Positions 3,893-45,156 of a stretch of 64,000 nt of DNA are shown piece by piece. This stretch comes from Bradyrhizobium sp. CCBAU 53338 (GTDB lineage: Bacteria; Pseudomonadota; Alphaproteobacteria; Rhizobiales; Xanthobacteraceae). The position numbers and the translations under genes are program-made. Below the pieces are notes generated by a model. That model was not told the DNA's origin. It did not search any database and saw nothing but the letters and a program-made list of their open reading frames with translations. How positions within the stretch are numbered: the first letter of the stretch is position 1; the number at the start of each line of letters is the position of its first letter. Where the stretch lies: positions 6,262,001 to 6,326,000 of the forward strand of contig NZ_CP030048.1 in the NCBI RefSeq assembly GCF_015291665.1, read 5' to 3'.

Positions 3893-6800
3893 ATGACGAA
3901 TTCGGATTTCCAGTTGCGAGGCGTCGGCGATCCCAGGCTGTCCGTGCATGCGACCTCGCCCTTGCCGGCCTGGCTCTGGTCGCCCGACGGCAGCCGCGTG
4001 CTGTGGGCCAATGCGGTCGGCGCAATATTTTTCGGCGCGGCCAATGCGGCCGAGCTCGCGCAAAGGACATTCGGACCGTCCGACACCCATCGCCGCCAGA
4101 TCGTCCGGCTCGCCCGCCAGCTGCCCGCGAACGGCGCGGTGAGGCTCGAGCGGATGCGCGGCTTCGGCGCGCGGCTCGGCACGCTCATGACCTGCGCCTG
4201 CGCGCGGCTCGATTTTTCCGACGGCAGCGAAGCCGTGCTCGTCACCGCGATGGATGCCACCGCGCGCAGCATGCCGCTGGTCGAGCGGCTGCATCGCCTC
4301 GTCGACGGCGCGACAACGCCGATGGCGGCGTTCGCGCCCGACGGCATGTTCGCCGGCGCCAGCGAAGCCGCACGCCCGCTGCTCGGCTTTCGCGATCTCG
4401 GCGAGGCCGGCCTCGAACAGGCGCGCAGCGATGCGCTCGGCAGCGGCCGCGTCGAGATCCCTGTCGGCATCGGCAAGATGGTGCTGCAACGGGTCGGCGC
4501 CGGGGCCGATGTCGGCCTCGTCGCGCTGATCGAGCCCGAGGTGACGCAGGCCGCGCCCGCGGCCGAGAGCGCGCCGGAGCCTGCGGCTGAAATGTTGCAT
4601 GAGGTGGTGCATGGAGCGGTGCAGCCGGCTGCCCCCGAGATGTCCGATGAACCCGCGCATCATGTCGTCGAGACGCCGCCGGCGGACGAGCTCGACGCCG
4701 GCATCGCGTTGTTCGATCCGTTTGCCGAGCCGGACGAGACGCCCGCGACGACCGAGACGATCGCAGCTGCGCCCGAGCCTGGTGCACACGAGGCGACGGA
4801 GATCGTCGCGATCCAGGATGCCGTGAAGGAAGCGGCCGAGGCGCCTGTCCGGGACACGATCGCCGAGACCGCGGAGACCGCGCCGGAAACAGCTGAGGAA
4901 AACCCGCCGGCAGCCATTGTGCCGCCGCAAGCTGCGCCGATCACATCAGCCATGGTCGAGCCGCCCGGACGTGCGGAGCCGCAGTCCGCACATGCTGAGA
5001 CACCTCGCCAGCATCCGCTGCGATTCCTGTGGCAGATGGATGCGCTGGGGCGCTTCGTGCTGGCGTCGAGCGAGTTCATCCGCCTGATCGGCGCGCACAC
5101 CGCGGCCGGCTTCGGCCGGCCCTGGCGCGAGATCGCCGACGAATTTGCGCTCGATCCCGATGGCCGCGTCGCGCAGGCGCTCGCCAGCCACGACACCTGG
5201 GCCGGCATCACCGTGAACTGGCCCGCCGATGGCGGCGAGCATCTGCCGGTCGAACTCGCAGGCCTGCCGGTCTACGACCGCGAGCGCAACTTCGCCGGCT
5301 TCAAGGGCTTTGGCGTCTGCCGCGATCTCGACGGCCTCAACCGGCTCGATGCGCTGCGCCGTTACGAATTGGTCTCCGAGCCGCATCCGCCGCAGAGCCT
5401 GTCGGCCGACGTGGTCGAGCCCGATCCCGAACCGGAGGCAGAGCCTCCGCTCGCGGCATCGCCGCCGCCCGAGCCTGAACCGCCCACTGCAATCGAAGCC
5501 GAACCGCCCGCACTTTTCATCGAAGCGAATTCACAACCAACCGATCCGGAAACGCCAGTGGAAACGCCTCCGAATGTCGTCCCGTTCCGCGCCCCCGGCG
5601 ACCAGAGGTCACAAGGCGACCAGAGATCGCCGACGCTGACGCCGGTCGAGAACAGCGCGTTCAACGAGCTCGCGCGGCAATTGTCCGAGCGGCTCGAACG
5701 CGATCGCGAACAGATTTCCTCAACTGCGGCCGAGCTGCCGGCGGAGGAGATCGCGTCCGAAGCGCAGATGCCGCCCGAGCCCGCTCTATCGGAGCCCCTG
5801 ATATCGGAGCCCTTGATCTCGGAGCTCGAGGCGCCGCCGGCCGCGGCCGAATGGCTGACCGAGCCGGCGCCGCCGCCGCGCGGCGACAGCCTGCGCGACC
5901 GCACGCTGCTGGATCTCGTGCCCTCGGGCATGCTGATCTACCGGCTCGACCGCCTGCTCTACGCCAACCCGGCGTTCCTGGCGCGCATGGGCTACGCCAG
6001 CATCAATGCGCTGGAAGACGCCGGCGGGCTGGATGCGCTCTATGTCGAGCCGGGCGTCTCCGCCGCCTCGAGCACGTCGCAATCGGGCACGCCGGTGACG
6101 ATCAGCGCGGCCATCGCGAACGGCGAGCAGGAGCTGGCGACGACGGAAGCGCATCTGCACACGATCGACTGGAACGGCGAGAGCGCGCATGCGCTGATCT
6201 GCGCGCTGCCGCAAGCCATCCCTGTCATGGTCGCGCCGACCGTCGTCACCGAGACCGTCGTCGCGGAAACCTTCCCCTACGCGTCCGATCCCGAGCCCGA
6301 GGCCGGCGAAGCCGATGCGGAAGATCTCGCCGCGATCCTCGACACCACGGCCGAGGGCATCGTGATGTTCGATGCCGAAGGCAACATCCACGCCTGCAAC
6401 CGCAGCGCCGAGGCTCTGTTCGGCTACGACGGCGAGACGCTGCTGCAGCAGACCCTGCTGACGCTGTTCGCGCCCGAGAGCCAGCAGATCGTCGTCGACT
6501 ATCTCGAAAGCCTCAAGAGCCAGGACATCGCGAGCCTGCTCGATCACGGCCGCGAGGTGCTGGGCCGCGAGAAGAAGGGCGGCGTGCTGCCGCTCGCCAT
6601 GATCATGGGCCGTACGCGGCCGGACGGTCCGAACTTCTTCGCCGTGTTCCGCGATCTGTCGCACGCGAAGAAGGGCGAGAGCGAGCTGACGCAGGCGCGA
6701 CGCCTCGTCGACGGCGCCGCCAATGCCAAGGCCGACATGCTGGCGCGGATCAGCCACGAGATCCGCACGCCGCTCAACGCCATCATCGGCTTTGCCGAGG

Positions 6801-7417
6801 TGATGATCTCCGAACGCTTCGGCGCGCTCGGCAACGAGCGCTACGGCGAATACATGAAGGACATCCGCGCCTCCGGCGAGCGCGTGATCACCATCGTCGA
6901 CGATCTGCTGGAGCTGTCGCGGATCGAGACCGGCAAGCTCGACCTGAATTTTTCGGGTTTGAACCTCAACGACCTCGTCGAGGCCTGTGTCACCGTGATG
7001 CAGCCGCAGGCCAATCGCGAGCGCATCATCATCCGCACCTCGCTCGCCCATGCGCTGCCGCAGGTGACGGCGGACGCGCGCGCGCTGCGGCAGGTGACGA
7101 TGAACCTGATCTCGAACTCGATCCGGCTCGCCAGCGCCGGCGGCCAGGTGATCGTCTCGACCGCGCTCTCCGACCGCGGCGAGATCGCGCTTCGCATCCG
7201 CGACACCGGCCATGGCCTCAGCGAACAGGAAGTCGCCGCCGCCATGGAGCCGTTCCGCACCCCGCCGCCCGGCGACGCCGCGGACGGCGCGGCGCTCAGC
7301 CTGTCGCTGACCAAGGCCCTGGTCGAAGCCAACCGCGCCCAGTTCAACATCAAGAGCGCGGGCAGTTCGGGCACGTTGATCGAAGTGACCTTCGCACCTG
7401 TGGCGACGCGGGCGTGA
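3893..7417 (+). CDS. Large cytoplasmic PAS sensor histidine kinase (PleC/DivJ/PdhS-like)
   Basis: The 1174-residue protein has no clear transmembrane segment. Residues about 1-200 are a PAS-like N-terminal module; about 200-370 and 500-650 are Glu/Pro/Ala-rich linkers; a PAS-like domain spans about 375-480; further PAS domains lie near 665-730 and 815-900. The HisKA H-box has H955 in RISHEIRTPLNAIIGF. The following segment (ERFGALGNERYGEYMKDI) matches the dimerization domain of the PleC/DivJ/PdhS cell-cycle kinases that act on DivK-type regulators (family inference). The ATPase domain has N-box NLISNSIRLASAGG and G1 DTGHGL. The usual GxGLGL G2 box is replaced by DGAALSLSLTK near 1130-1140. 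No response regulator is adjacent. Confidence 0.85.
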   Translation: MTNSDFQLRGVGDPRLSVHATSPLPAWLWSPDGSRVLWANAVGAIFFGAANAAELAQRTFGPSDTHRRQIVRLARQLPANGAVRLERMRGFGARLGTLMTCACARLDFSDGSEAVLVTAMDATARSMPLVERLHRLVDGATTPMAAFAPDGMFAGASEAARPLLGFRDLGEAGLEQARSDALGSGRVEIPVGIGKMVLQRVGAGADVGLVALIEPEVTQAAPAAESAPEPAAEMLHEVVHGAVQPAAPEMSDEPAHHVVETPPADELDAGIALFDPFAEPDETPATTETIAAAPEPGAHEATEIVAIQDAVKEAAEAPVRDTIAETAETAPETAEENPPAAIVPPQAAPITSAMVEPPGRAEPQSAHAETPRQHPLRFLWQMDALGRFVLASSEFIRLIGAHTAAGFGRPWREIADEFALDPDGRVAQALASHDTWAGITVNWPADGGEHLPVELAGLPVYDRERNFAGFKGFGVCRDLDGLNRLDALRRYELVSEPHPPQSLSADVVEPDPEPEAEPPLAASPPPEPEPPTAIEAEPPALFIEANSQPTDPETPVETPPNVVPFRAPGDQRSQGDQRSPTLTPVENSAFNELARQLSERLERDREQISSTAAELPAEEIASEAQMPPEPALSEPLISEPLISELEAPPAAAEWLTEPAPPPRGDSLRDRTLLDLVPSGMLIYRLDRLLYANPAFLARMGYASINALEDAGGLDALYVEPGVSAASSTSQSGTPVTISAAIANGEQELATTEAHLHTIDWNGESAHALICALPQAIPVMVAPTVVTETVVAETFPYASDPEPEAGEADAEDLAAILDTTAEGIVMFDAEGNIHACNRSAEALFGYDGETLLQQTLLTLFAPESQQIVVDYLESLKSQDIASLLDHGREVLGREKKGGVLPLAMIMGRTRPDGPNFFAVFRDLSHAKKGESELTQARRLVDGAANAKADMLARISHEIRTPLNAIIGFAEVMISERFGALGNERYGEYMKDIRASGERVITIVDDLLELSRIETGKLDLNFSGLNLNDLVEACVTVMQPQANRERIIIRTSLAHALPQVTADARALRQVTMNLISNSIRLASAGGQVIVSTALSDRGEIALRIRDTGHGLSEQEVAAAMEPFRTPPPGDAADGAALSLSLTKALVEANRAQFNIKSAGSSGTLIEVTFAPVATRA

Positions 7418-7447
7418 AGACGGCCGCGAACGAGGTGCGTGCAGCGC

Positions 7448-9424
7448 CTACGCCGCGCGCACCGTATCCAGGAACTTGCCGACCTCGAACTTGAGGCGGT
7501 TGCTGTCGCCCGACAGAGACCTCGCCGCCGACAGCACCTGCGCCGATGCCGAGCCGGTCTCGACCGCGCCGTGGCGCACGTTGCTGATGTTGGCGCTGAC
7601 CTGCGTGGTGCCGGCAGCCGCGCTCTGGACGTTGCGCGAGATCTCGCTGGTCGCGGCGCCCTGCTCTTCGACGGCGGCCGCGATGGTCGACGAGATCTCC
7701 GACAGGCGCTCGATGGTGCCGCCGATGGTCCTGATCGCGCCGACGGACTCGTTGGTGGCGCCCTGGATGCTGGCGATCTGCTGACCGATCTCGCCGGTCG
7801 CCTTCGCGGTCTGCTCGGCCAGCGCCTTCACCTCCGAAGCGACCACCGCAAAGCCGCGCCCGGCCTCGCCCGCGCGCGCCGCCTCGATGGTGGCGTTCAG
7901 CGCCAGCAGATTGGTCTGGCCGGCGATGGCGTTGATGAGCTCGACCACGTCGCCGATGCGGGCGGCAGCCCTGGACAATTCGCTGACGCGATCGTTGGTC
8001 TGGCCGGCCTGGCTGACGGCCTCGCCGGCGATGCGCGCCGAGGCCTGCACCTGGCGGCTGATCTCGTTGACCGAGGCGGTCAGCTCCTCCGCGGCGGAGG
8101 CGACCGACTGCACGTTGGTGGCGGCTTCTTCCGAGGCGGCCTCGACCAGCGTCGCCAATTCGCTCGAGCGGCCCGCAGTCGTCGTCAGCGACGTCGCCGA
8201 CGCCTCGAGCTCGGTCGCCGCCGACGATACGGTCTCCACGATCTCGCCGATCGCGCCTTCGAAATCGTCGGCCATGCGGATCATGTCGGCGCGGCGGCGC
8301 TCGGCGGCGAGCTTGTCCTGCCTGATCTTCTCTTCGGCTTCGTCGCGCGCCTTCTGCTCGGCATTGAGCTTGAAGGTCTCGACGGCCTGCGCGATCTCCC
8401 CGATCTCGTCGGGACGGCCGAGGCCCGGCAGCACGATGGCGAAATTGCCCTTGGCGAGTTCGATCATCGCCGCCCGCATCGCCGCGAGCGGCTTCGACAC
8501 CGAACGGCCGATGAAGACCCCGAGGCCGAGCACGCCGGACGCGATCAGCGCGATCGCGACGGCGATCCAGAACTGGATACCGTCGCGCTCGGCATCGTTG
8601 AGCCGGTCGGCTTCGGCGCGGATGCCGTCGACCGCGTTCGAGACCTGCGCGATCACGGGCTCGACCGCCGCGAACGCCTCCGACATCGCCTTCAATTCCG
8701 TCGCGAGCTTCAAGGCGGTCTCCATCCAGGCGGCGAAGTCGCGCTGATAGTCGGCGAGCTTCTGCCGCAGCTCGGTCTTCGCCGTCTCGGGAATGGCGGC
8801 CGCGTCGATGCCGGCCGAAAATTCCGACGCGCGCTTCTTCATCTCGCCGCCGTATTTGGCGTCGCGACGCAGCATGAAATCCTTCTCGTGCCGGCGCATC
8901 ATCAGCATGATCACCTTGAGCGGGGCATCGTGGAGCTGATCGACCTTGCTCTCGATCTCGTGGACGGAGCCGCGCAGGCGGCCTTCGAGGCCTGAATTCT
9001 CGTTTAGCCCGAGCCGCAGCCGCTCCTCGACCACCGCGGCGAAACGTGCCTGATAGCTCTTCAGCGACGCGTTCATCGCGTCGATCTTCTGTGCGAGCTC
9101 AGGCTTGCCGAGCGCCGCGATCCGGCCGCGGAGCCTTTCGATGTCGGCAGCGACTTCCTTGCCGATCTCGACCTGGCGCTGGGCCCTGGCCGCATCGCCG
9201 CGCAGCAGGAAATCCTTCTCGGCGCGGCGGCCTTCCAGCAGCTCGACCGCGATCCTGTTGTTCAGCTCGAACATCGTGCGCGCGTTATCGGCAGCGTCGC
9301 GATAGACGCCCATCGCGCGCTCGCCGTAGAGATGAATGCCGCCGATGAGGACCACGCCGGCGACGCCGATGACGCCGATCGCAGTGATCTTGTGGGTGAG
9401 CCGGAGGGAGAGAAGCCGCATCAT
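7448..9424 (-). CDS. Methyl-accepting chemotaxis protein
   Basis: This is a membrane chemoreceptor of about 658 residues. A short N-terminal tail is followed by transmembrane helix 1 ([20 protein letters not shown]), a roughly 250-residue helical periplasmic sensor with repeated KDF(L/M)LRRDA-type segments suggesting a helical-bimodular ligand domain, and transmembrane helix 2 near residues 283-305. A HAMP linker and a cytoplasmic signalling hairpin follow, with the conserved tip [22 protein letters not shown] at 9430 and ATG at 9424 or 9421 are all possible starts; a weak GGTGA favours one of the ATGs. No che gene is adjacent, so it is an orphan receptor presumed to feed a remote CheA/CheW cluster. 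Confidence 0.92.
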
Positions 9425-40764: not shown

Positions 40765-40995
40765 ATGTCAGTGATCGAATACGACGACGAACCGCGGCCG
40801 AGAATCTATTCGCGCAAGGTGATCACAATCTGCCCGGAATGCGACGGCGATCTCGCGGTGCTCCGTGTGATCGGCGGACGCGCCGGGTGCGAGTACTGGA
40901 CCATGCGCTGCACGGATTGCGGCGGGATCCATCTCGACATCCTCGAACCGCGCCTGACGGTCGTGGACGGCGACGGGCCGCTGCCGGCGGCGTAG
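40765..40995 (+). CDS. Small zinc-ribbon-like conserved protein
   Basis: The 76-residue protein has two CxxC knuckles, CPECDGDL and CTDCGG, separated by about 21 residues, a four-cysteine zinc-ribbon pattern. The body between them is a beta-rich stretch (LAVLRVIGGRAGCEYWTMR). AGGGGGAA precedes ATG 40765. It probably binds zinc and could contact nucleic acid or protein, but no partner is shown. It lies 91 bases before uvrB. Confidence 0.68.
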   Translation: MSVIEYDDEPRPRIYSRKVITICPECDGDLAVLRVIGGRAGCEYWTMRCTDCGGIHLDILEPRLTVVDGDGPLPAA

Positions 40996-41086: not shown

Positions 41087-44056
<2,970 letters not shown>

Positions 44057-44098
44057 GTTGTCGCTGGCAATTCGAGCGGGTTTCTTTACGCTGGGCTC

Positions 44099-44866
44099 AT
44101 GAAACTTGGCTTTGAAGAGTCCCAACTTTCCTACACCAGCGGCTCACAAAGTGCCCGCGCGTGGACCGAGGCTTGGGTCAAGGCGTGGGCGTACTGTCCG
44201 CATTGCGGCAACGCTAAAATGTCACAGTTTCCGAACAACAGCCCGGTTGCCGATTTCCTTTGTGCTACCTGCAAAGAGGAGTTCGAGCTCAAAAGCCAAA
44301 AGGGGAAATTCGGAGCGAAAGTCTCGGATGGCGCCTACAAGACGAAGTGCGAACGACTTGCTGCGAGCAACAACCCTAATCTCCTCTTGATGAACTACGA
44401 CCGAACCTCGCTTGCGGTCGTGAATCTTTTTATCGTACCGAAGCACTTTTTCGTTCCTGAGATTATCGAGAAGCGTAAGCCCCTAGCAATGACGGCGCGG
44501 CGCGCCGGCTGGATCGGCTCCAACATCCTGCTCAGCAAGGTGCCGGAGTCCGGCAAGATCCATGTAGTGCAGAGCGGCGTGGTTCGACCGAAAGAACAGG
44601 TACTTGAAGAATGGCAGAAGACGCTTTTTCTGCGCAGCAAGTCTTTGGAGGCGCGGGGCTGGTTGCTCGATGTACTGAAATGCGTGGAATCATTGGGCAA
44701 GCGTGAGTTCACGCTAGAAGAAGCCTATGCTTTCGATCGGCATCTCGGCGATCTCTATCCCGACAACCAGAATATCAGACCAAAGATACGTCAGCAGCTT
44801 CAGTATCTGCGAGATCGAGGATTTATCGAGTTCGTTTCTCGCGGCAGTTACCGTTTGAAATCGTGA
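44099..44866 (+). CDS. DpnI-like type IIM restriction endonuclease
   Basis: The 255-residue protein aligns by eye end to end with DpnI (254 residues). It has a zinc-binding CPHCG (C33/C36) and CATC (C55/C58), catalytic PD-(D/E)XK residues D52 and E63/K65 in VADF...FELKS, NNPNLLLM, ARRAGWIGSNILLSKVP, and a C-terminal winged helix (RPKIRQQLQYLRDRGFIEF). DpnI cuts Gm6ATC only when adenine is methylated, so this gene needs no cognate methylase. A 240-base sample (44161-44400) has 53% G+C, against 69% in uvrB. It overlaps the following zinc-ribbon gene. Confidence 0.9.
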   Translation: MKLGFEESQLSYTSGSQSARAWTEAWVKAWAYCPHCGNAKMSQFPNNSPVADFLCATCKEEFELKSQKGKFGAKVSDGAYKTKCERLAASNNPNLLLMNYDRTSLAVVNLFIVPKHFFVPEIIEKRKPLAMTARRAGWIGSNILLSKVPESGKIHVVQSGVVRPKEQVLEEWQKTLFLRSKSLEARGWLLDVLKCVESLGKREFTLEEAYAFDRHLGDLYPDNQNIRPKIRQQLQYLRDRGFIEFVSRGSYRLKS

Positions 44867-45156
44867 GGTTCGATCTGGCCTGGTTCCTGAATTTCTACCG
44901 ATGCGGCCGGTGCAGGAAGATATGGACCGACGAATGGTCATGCACCTGCGACGACGAGTGCCCGCACTGCGGGTTCAGCGACATGACGCCGTTCAACAGC
45001 GAAGATTTGACTGAGCTCATTGTGGAGGAAAACAAAAAATTCGTTGTATTGCGCTCGTCCGAAAATGCGGAGGACGACCCGGACTACGAGGAGCTTGGCC
45101 GCTTCGCGACGCGTGATGCGGCGAAGGAATTCCTGCGCTCACACCAGCCGAATTGA
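44863..45156 (+). CDS. Small zinc-ribbon protein coupled to the DpnI-like gene
   Basis: The 97-residue protein starts with GTG 44863, inside the stop of the DpnI-like gene (GTGA overlap), so it is translationally coupled to it. It has CGRCRKIW, then CTC, then CPHCG, a cysteine-rich zinc ribbon, followed by an acidic C-terminal half (DDPDYEELGRFATRDAAKEFLRS). Standalone ribbons with the W(x)DEWSCxCDDxCPxCG pattern occur widely without known function. It is not similar to DpnD as I know it. It may assist or regulate the endonuclease. Confidence 0.8.
   Translation: MRFDLAWFLNFYRCGRCRKIWTDEWSCTCDDECPHCGFSDMTPFNSEDLTELIVEENKKFVVLRSSENAEDDPDYEELGRFATRDAAKEFLRSHQPN

Follow-up and report, generated by a model that had tools for sequence, protein, structure and literature searches.

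The closest described systems are those of Streptococcus pneumoniae and Neisseria. Pneumococcal DpnI is described in a passage of PMC8515895 as an endonuclease plus DpnD, and the same article cites a 1986 paper by Lacks whose title refers to cassette exchange at DpnI/DpnII; part of PMC3573125 presents DpnI and DpnII as alternative loci. The DpnI residues L129, R135 and W138 are named as lining the methyl cleft in a section of PMC4117772, in which D53, an active-site residue, serves as a control. In Neisseria, Drg (dam-replacing gene) is portrayed in a portion of PMC4269198 as a GmeATC-specific endonuclease encoded in a low-GC locus. A search of open-licence PubMed Central returned no paper on a DpnI or dam-replacing system in Bradyrhizobium, and likewise none on such a system with a zinc ribbon in Rhizobiales.

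Here we analyse a DpnI-type gene and its small neighbour in a 64 kb stretch of Bradyrhizobium sp. CCBAU 53338 DNA (the window). The relevant features are as follows.

41087..44056, + strand: uvrB, conserved upstream neighbour by which the site is recognised (ORF list, flank comparison)
44064..44098, + strand: promoter-like block with CTGGCA and TACGCT spaced by 17 nt, 6 nt ahead of the dpnI ATG; 7 of 12 letters agree with the consensus
44099..44866, + strand: dpnI-type gene encoding 255 aa, with a zinc-binding catalytic domain (residues 5-180) and a winged helix at the C terminus (residues 184-252) (Pfam, PADLOC, PDB alignment)
44863..44874, + strand: alternative start GTG 44863, which overlaps the dpnI stop and extends the ribbon gene upstream in frame (ORF list, start comparison)
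44875..45156, + strand: zinc-ribbon gene, 93 aa, most likely from CTG 44875 (ATG there in 30 of 31 relatives)

The sequence-only reading of this region had proposed that the 255-residue protein is a DpnI homologue which keeps the zinc cysteines, catalytic D52/E63/K65 and the winged-helix end, and all of this is borne out. The protein scored 235.6 bits against PF06044 (Pfam DpnI; cut-off 26.7) and 326.4 bits against the PADLOC mREase_II model, and it aligned with PDB 4ESJ over residues 10-252 (E 4.2e-79, ∼50% identical), matches far beyond chance. Its winged helix scored 102.9 bits against PF17726 (DpnI_C; cut-off 23, E 1e-29). In the 4ESJ alignment, L129, R135 and W138 of the methyl cleft are conserved, and C33, C36, C55, C58, D52, E63 and K65 fall on identical DpnI residues, which we take to be the zinc cysteines and the catalytic D/E/K. 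Judged by its sequence, the window gene thus encodes an intact DpnI, in which the catalytic, zinc, methyl-cleft and winged-helix elements are all present. The protein is basic (pI 9.45). With respect to base composition, the 53% G+C given earlier for a 240-base sample compares with our value of 53.2% for dpnI (ribbon gene, 56.7%), but uvrB stands at 64.3% over the 700-residue core used, a stretch for which the earlier 69% is too high.

The second gene had been said to start inside the first stop and to encode a ribbon with four to six cysteines. An ORF from GTG 44863 to 45156 (+ strand, 97 aa) does exist; however, among the 31 homologues whose starts were inspected, from 38 loci with the ribbon, the conserved start codon was ATG in 30 and GTG in one, with CTG 44875 at the same position in the window. 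An ancestral start at the GTG inside the dpnI stop is thus improbable, and because CTG replaces a conserved ATG, ribbon expression may be lower in this strain. As for the cysteines, C14, C17, C27, C29 and C33 are invariant in 25 aligned rows, and C36 is present in at least 90% of them. The same rows are acidic, with a mean pI of 4.54 and net charges of -6 to -19. An AF2 model of the 97 aa form (pLDDT 86, pTM 0.63) shows six strands and one helix. Foldseek returned 330 matches to this model at E up to 10, none of those in the PDB falling below E 0.19, and no Pfam match exceeded its cut-off. A separate gene for a 76 aa zinc-ribbon-like protein (CPxCG-like, below cut-off) lies just before uvrB at window positions 40765-40995 and is kept in near relatives.

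The promoter-like block before dpnI may serve a leaderless dpnI transcript. A similar block was seen in 17 of 24 loci (window, L002-L011, L013-L025), the same loci to which the pattern was fitted after inspection. A loose promoter score was slightly above that of shuffles (6.05 versus 5.02, 37 loci), and a stricter promoter scan did not report the block before dpnI.

A profile search of the own genome for PF02086, PF05869 and PF01555 found no protein of the first two families and a single PF01555 protein, CcrM-like, which scored 611.5 bits against the CcrM model (strict cut-off, 830); the genome contains one DpnI. Self-cutting is therefore not expected from these families, in keeping with the earlier suggestion that the gene would do its host no damage. 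With 620 GATC sites in the window, where base composition predicts 207, a Dam-methylated chromosome would presumably be cut very often. Five methylated motifs are described for B. diazoefficiens; GANTC greatly outnumbers the others, the word GATC is absent from the main text of the article, and the last A of another motif, CRAGGAT, is methylated (PMC4840208, in part); methylation of CRAGGAT followed by C would leave a one-strand mark in GATC.

We also asked how Dam-type genes are distributed across 146 Bradyrhizobium genomes. The idea that DpnI-positive genomes avoid Dam was not supported: any PF02086 match was found in 4/29 DpnI-positive versus 14/117 other genomes (Fisher p 0.76). Strong Dam-type matches were present in four of the 146 (G082 and G016 by TIGR00571, G080 and G019 by PF02086 score only), none of them DpnI-positive (p 0.58). 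Methylases of DpnI-positive genomes fell below the TIGR00571 cut-off of 114.85 bits (G118, 85.3; G056, 78.5; G048, 39.1), in a scoring that left out the G107 methylase and a second G118 match.

To see how steadily the ribbon accompanies dpnI, we kept the best 80 of 90 relatives of the DpnI protein as loci, 41 of which are alphaproteobacterial as judged by record titles. The ribbon lies near dpnI in 38 of these 41, the exceptions being L032, L036 and L043, and in 0 of the 39 other loci, two of which are titled only bacterium and several of which reach contig ends. Within the class, then, the ribbon is present at most homologous loci, as the sequence-only reading had anticipated, but the association does not extend to the loci outside it. 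In L038, L041 and L042 the ribbon sits upstream rather than downstream of dpnI, still close by. Single broken copies occur on either side: the ribbon is truncated beside a full-length DpnI in L016 (the same genome as G056) and L040, both copies keeping the zinc half, and a broken DpnI accompanies a full-length ribbon in L002, L042 and G051. These one-sided breakages do not support a toxin-antitoxin-like dependence, and indicate that neither gene needs the other over short times. The earlier suggestion of a two-protein defence loses ground for related reasons, as the ribbon occurs without DpnI, DpnI occurs without the ribbon, and the overlapping GTG is probably not ancestral.

Within Bradyrhizobium, PF06044 matches were found in 29/146 genomes, including a different, short and weak type in G068 and G112 and a fragmented copy in G051. 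The ribbon adjoins dpnI in all 27 of the 27 genomes with a non-weak DpnI. Ribbon matches extend to 45/146 genomes, and the 18 outside the 27 pairs are decayed copies, stubs or partial matches; we inspected the surroundings in 12 of these 18, and, remains aside, the unpaired matches lie by eye mostly in mobile-element or phage-type DNA. Class-wide, PF06044 was found in 5/385 genomes, full-length and strong only in the own genome (the G311 match is a piece at a contig end), and the ribbon in at least 2/385; sampling of the class was too thin. Order-wide, DpnI was found in 8/347 genomes (four full, four weak) and the ribbon in at least 6/347. For the class and order, at most 13 or 14 ribbon candidates were scored per genome, and some may have been missed.

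Several of the other loci have peculiarities of their own. In two Marinicaulis loci, the ribbon is replaced by a different gene of 60-62 aa, with no Pfam match (E 0.5), immediately ahead of dpnI (L036 3843-4031, L043 5817-5999). A PF01555 methylase gene directly precedes dpnI in one Uhrbacteria record (L035 3481-4038), and in one Flavobacterium record (L048, ∼5900-8600) dpnI lies, by eye, between apparent pieces of two methylase genes. Some Rhizobiales genomes also encode short DpnI-like proteins of ∼150-205 aa (L092 4743-5192, L093 4621-5187, L111 1471-1935, L112 1498-2115, L114 1447-1935); by eye, these keep the CxxC pairs and RxGW, but QxK replaces ExK and no winged helix is seen.

The pair occupies a variable site behind uvrB. 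A uvrB match lies upstream of dpnI in 24/24 named records (L002 to L025), and the window UvrB is 94.6% identical to that of B. manausense (L002). We examined 90 uvrB 3' flanks, drawn from 92 matches in 93 genomes (G058 and G074, in which the contig ends there, were omitted). Both genes were present in 18, a dpnI stub in one, ribbon stubs in two and neither in 69, although 30 of the 90 flanks span only 1.5 kb and G029 counts among the last group despite a decayed ribbon further on. The 18 flanks with both genes belong to the same 18 genomes with a non-weak DpnI among the first 93. The distance from uvrB to the pair is mostly <1.1 kb, reaching ∼2.6 kb in G037. Remains include, in G029, a ribbon that has lost a cysteine and is garbled in its central part, ribbon ends alone in G126, G006 and G052, and the first dpnI residues in G040. 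The two genes thus tend to decay together, single broken copies notwithstanding. Other occupants behind uvrB include an HNH protein (G061), a SIR2-STAND protein ∼0.7 kb on (G080), and NACHT and poly-A-polymerase-head proteins (G029). In G016, a fragmented genome (89% complete, 5% contamination, 720 contigs), uvrB is followed by a low-GC island that encodes two DGQHR proteins and a methylase of the Dam family (TIGR00571, 240 bits; cut-off 114.85). In L210 and L213 (genomes G038 and G086), the 3' end of uvrB recurs ∼2.5-3.3 kb further downstream, a duplication that could be a trace of earlier insertions.

The histories of the neighbours differ. For the window and the near loci used for dN/dS (listed below) except L024, which lacks a uvrB part, the uvrB tree and the dpnI tree are mutually incompatible in AU tests (p 4e-15 and 1e-96), at a Robinson-Foulds distance of 30 (21 taxa). 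We further compared synonymous divergence between the window and 10 loci. Versus L002, L003 and L008, dS is 0.91-2.13 for dpnI and 0.11-0.47 for the flanking genes; versus L004, it is 1.80 for dpnI and 0.14-0.38 for the flanking genes, except for ntf1 (1.00), which is poorly matched and probably a different gene. The small flanking gene h75 also reaches 1.2-1.4 when relatives further off are compared. Ribbon dS versus L002, L003, L004 and L008 is intermediate, at 0.71-1.29. Repeated replacement at one address fits both the dS values and the tree conflict; a faster synonymous rate in a low-GC gene may have some part in the former, but on its own would leave the latter unexplained. Hence the pair appears to be passed between strains and yet to stay at its address behind uvrB. 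One caveat is that ribbon dS is below dpnI dS against L003 (0.71 versus 2.13) and L004 (0.87 versus 1.80), and the two may at times have been transferred separately.

We consider it probable that the window holds a stand-alone DpnI-family methyl-directed restriction gene, which forms with the ribbon a cassette exchanged behind uvrB. Restriction of Dam-methylated DNA is the function to be expected of the window DpnI. The enzyme would cut Gm6ATC in DNA arriving from Dam-positive donors and, should an element bring in a Dam gene, the cell's own DNA, while resident unmethylated GATC would stay safe. For the acidic ribbon, a close neighbour probably co-expressed with dpnI, the likeliest role, which we put forward only tentatively, is that of a small accessory protein binding to the basic DpnI or modulating it, and the two would be swapped between strains as one cassette at a single chromosomal address behind uvrB. 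A shift of the nuclease to a different methylated site, or a loss of its activity in this strain, appears very unlikely. Identity with DpnI is only ∼50% over the aligned part and the nearest relative, L002, has an in-frame stop in dpnI, but the catalytic and methyl-cleft residues align with those of DpnI and median dN/dS is low (dpnI, 0.054; ribbon, 0.108; uvrB, 0.090), with dS near-saturated for dpnI and the ribbon. These medians cover 21 loci (L003-L019, L021, L022, L024, L025) and the window; L002 and L023, which have stops in dpnI, L020, and L026 onward were left out.

The role of the ribbon is harder to assign. Its domain has relatives without DpnI in plasmids, phages and, by eye, regions resembling conjugative elements. 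Most of the mobile-element matches span model positions ∼4-47 only, but a full-length ribbon occurs without DpnI in G589, by eye near conjugation-type genes, a full-length relative with fewer cysteines in G757, and a second, free full-length copy in L021 besides its dpnI-ribbon pair. A tblastn match covers ribbon residues 5-94 as a putative frame in viral contig L225, and no relative of the DpnI protein was found in viral contigs. The ribbon, in short, is a conserved neighbour of dpnI but not specific to it. It could accordingly be a fellow passenger, a mobile-element small protein carried in the same cassette and kept for a separate function, a reading that we take seriously but doubt: adjacency is complete in the 27 Bradyrhizobium genomes, the four found with ribbon remains at or close to this site and no dpnI (G029, G126, G006, G052) hold only a damaged ribbon or a stub, and even where the ribbon has shifted upstream it stays close to dpnI. 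Another reading, which we deem unlikely, has the ribbon restrain DpnI: as an acidic inhibitor it would postpone cleavage, giving useful methylated DNA time to establish itself or sparing the cell when a Dam-bearing element arrives. Mobile elements and phages often carry anti-restriction genes, ribbon relatives reside on both, and a strongly acidic protein adjoins a basic nuclease; charge, however, is weak evidence, and DpnI kept with a truncated ribbon or none argues against a needed antidote, although two truncated copies keep the zinc half. A bolder version of the accessory role is similarly doubtful: here the ribbon would be a dedicated zinc-dependent acidic DpnI regulator derived from mobile elements in alphaproteobacteria, and strains would alternate at the uvrB site between an anti-Dam cassette of DpnI plus ribbon and other modules, one of them with a Dam-family methylase.

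If the DpnI is active, DNA from Dam-positive Escherichia coli could enter some Bradyrhizobium strains poorly, and this would be a practical concern for rhizobium genetics. The ribbon, for its part, is a conserved but uncharacterised companion to a restriction enzyme that ranks among the best known. The window protein has the same domains and key residues as R.DpnI of S. pneumoniae (PDB 4ESJ, 4KYW; PF06044 and PF17726). The partners appear to differ, in that R.DpnI is described together with DpnD whereas the window partner is a zinc ribbon without a Pfam match over cut-off. The site differs from the pneumococcal DpnI/DpnII loci in that the methylase rests on one fragmented genome (G016), its module includes DGQHR proteins, and no DpnII set was recognised; it resembles them in having dpnI at a fixed, seemingly exchanged position, at which G016 carries a Dam-family methylase. 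As portrayed in the source cited above, Drg of Neisseria, a GmeATC endonuclease in a low-GC locus, is likewise comparable to the window DpnI protein, which N. gonorrhoeae records match at 41%, but its gene sits in the leuS/dam locus and not behind uvrB. The mobile-element zinc-ribbon proteins share the Cys-rich N-terminal domain with the window ribbon; most span only positions ∼4-47, whereas the DpnI-linked ribbon has a further part of ∼45 residues. The enzyme is thus a known kind in a little-studied group, and the steady ribbon partner is the new part.
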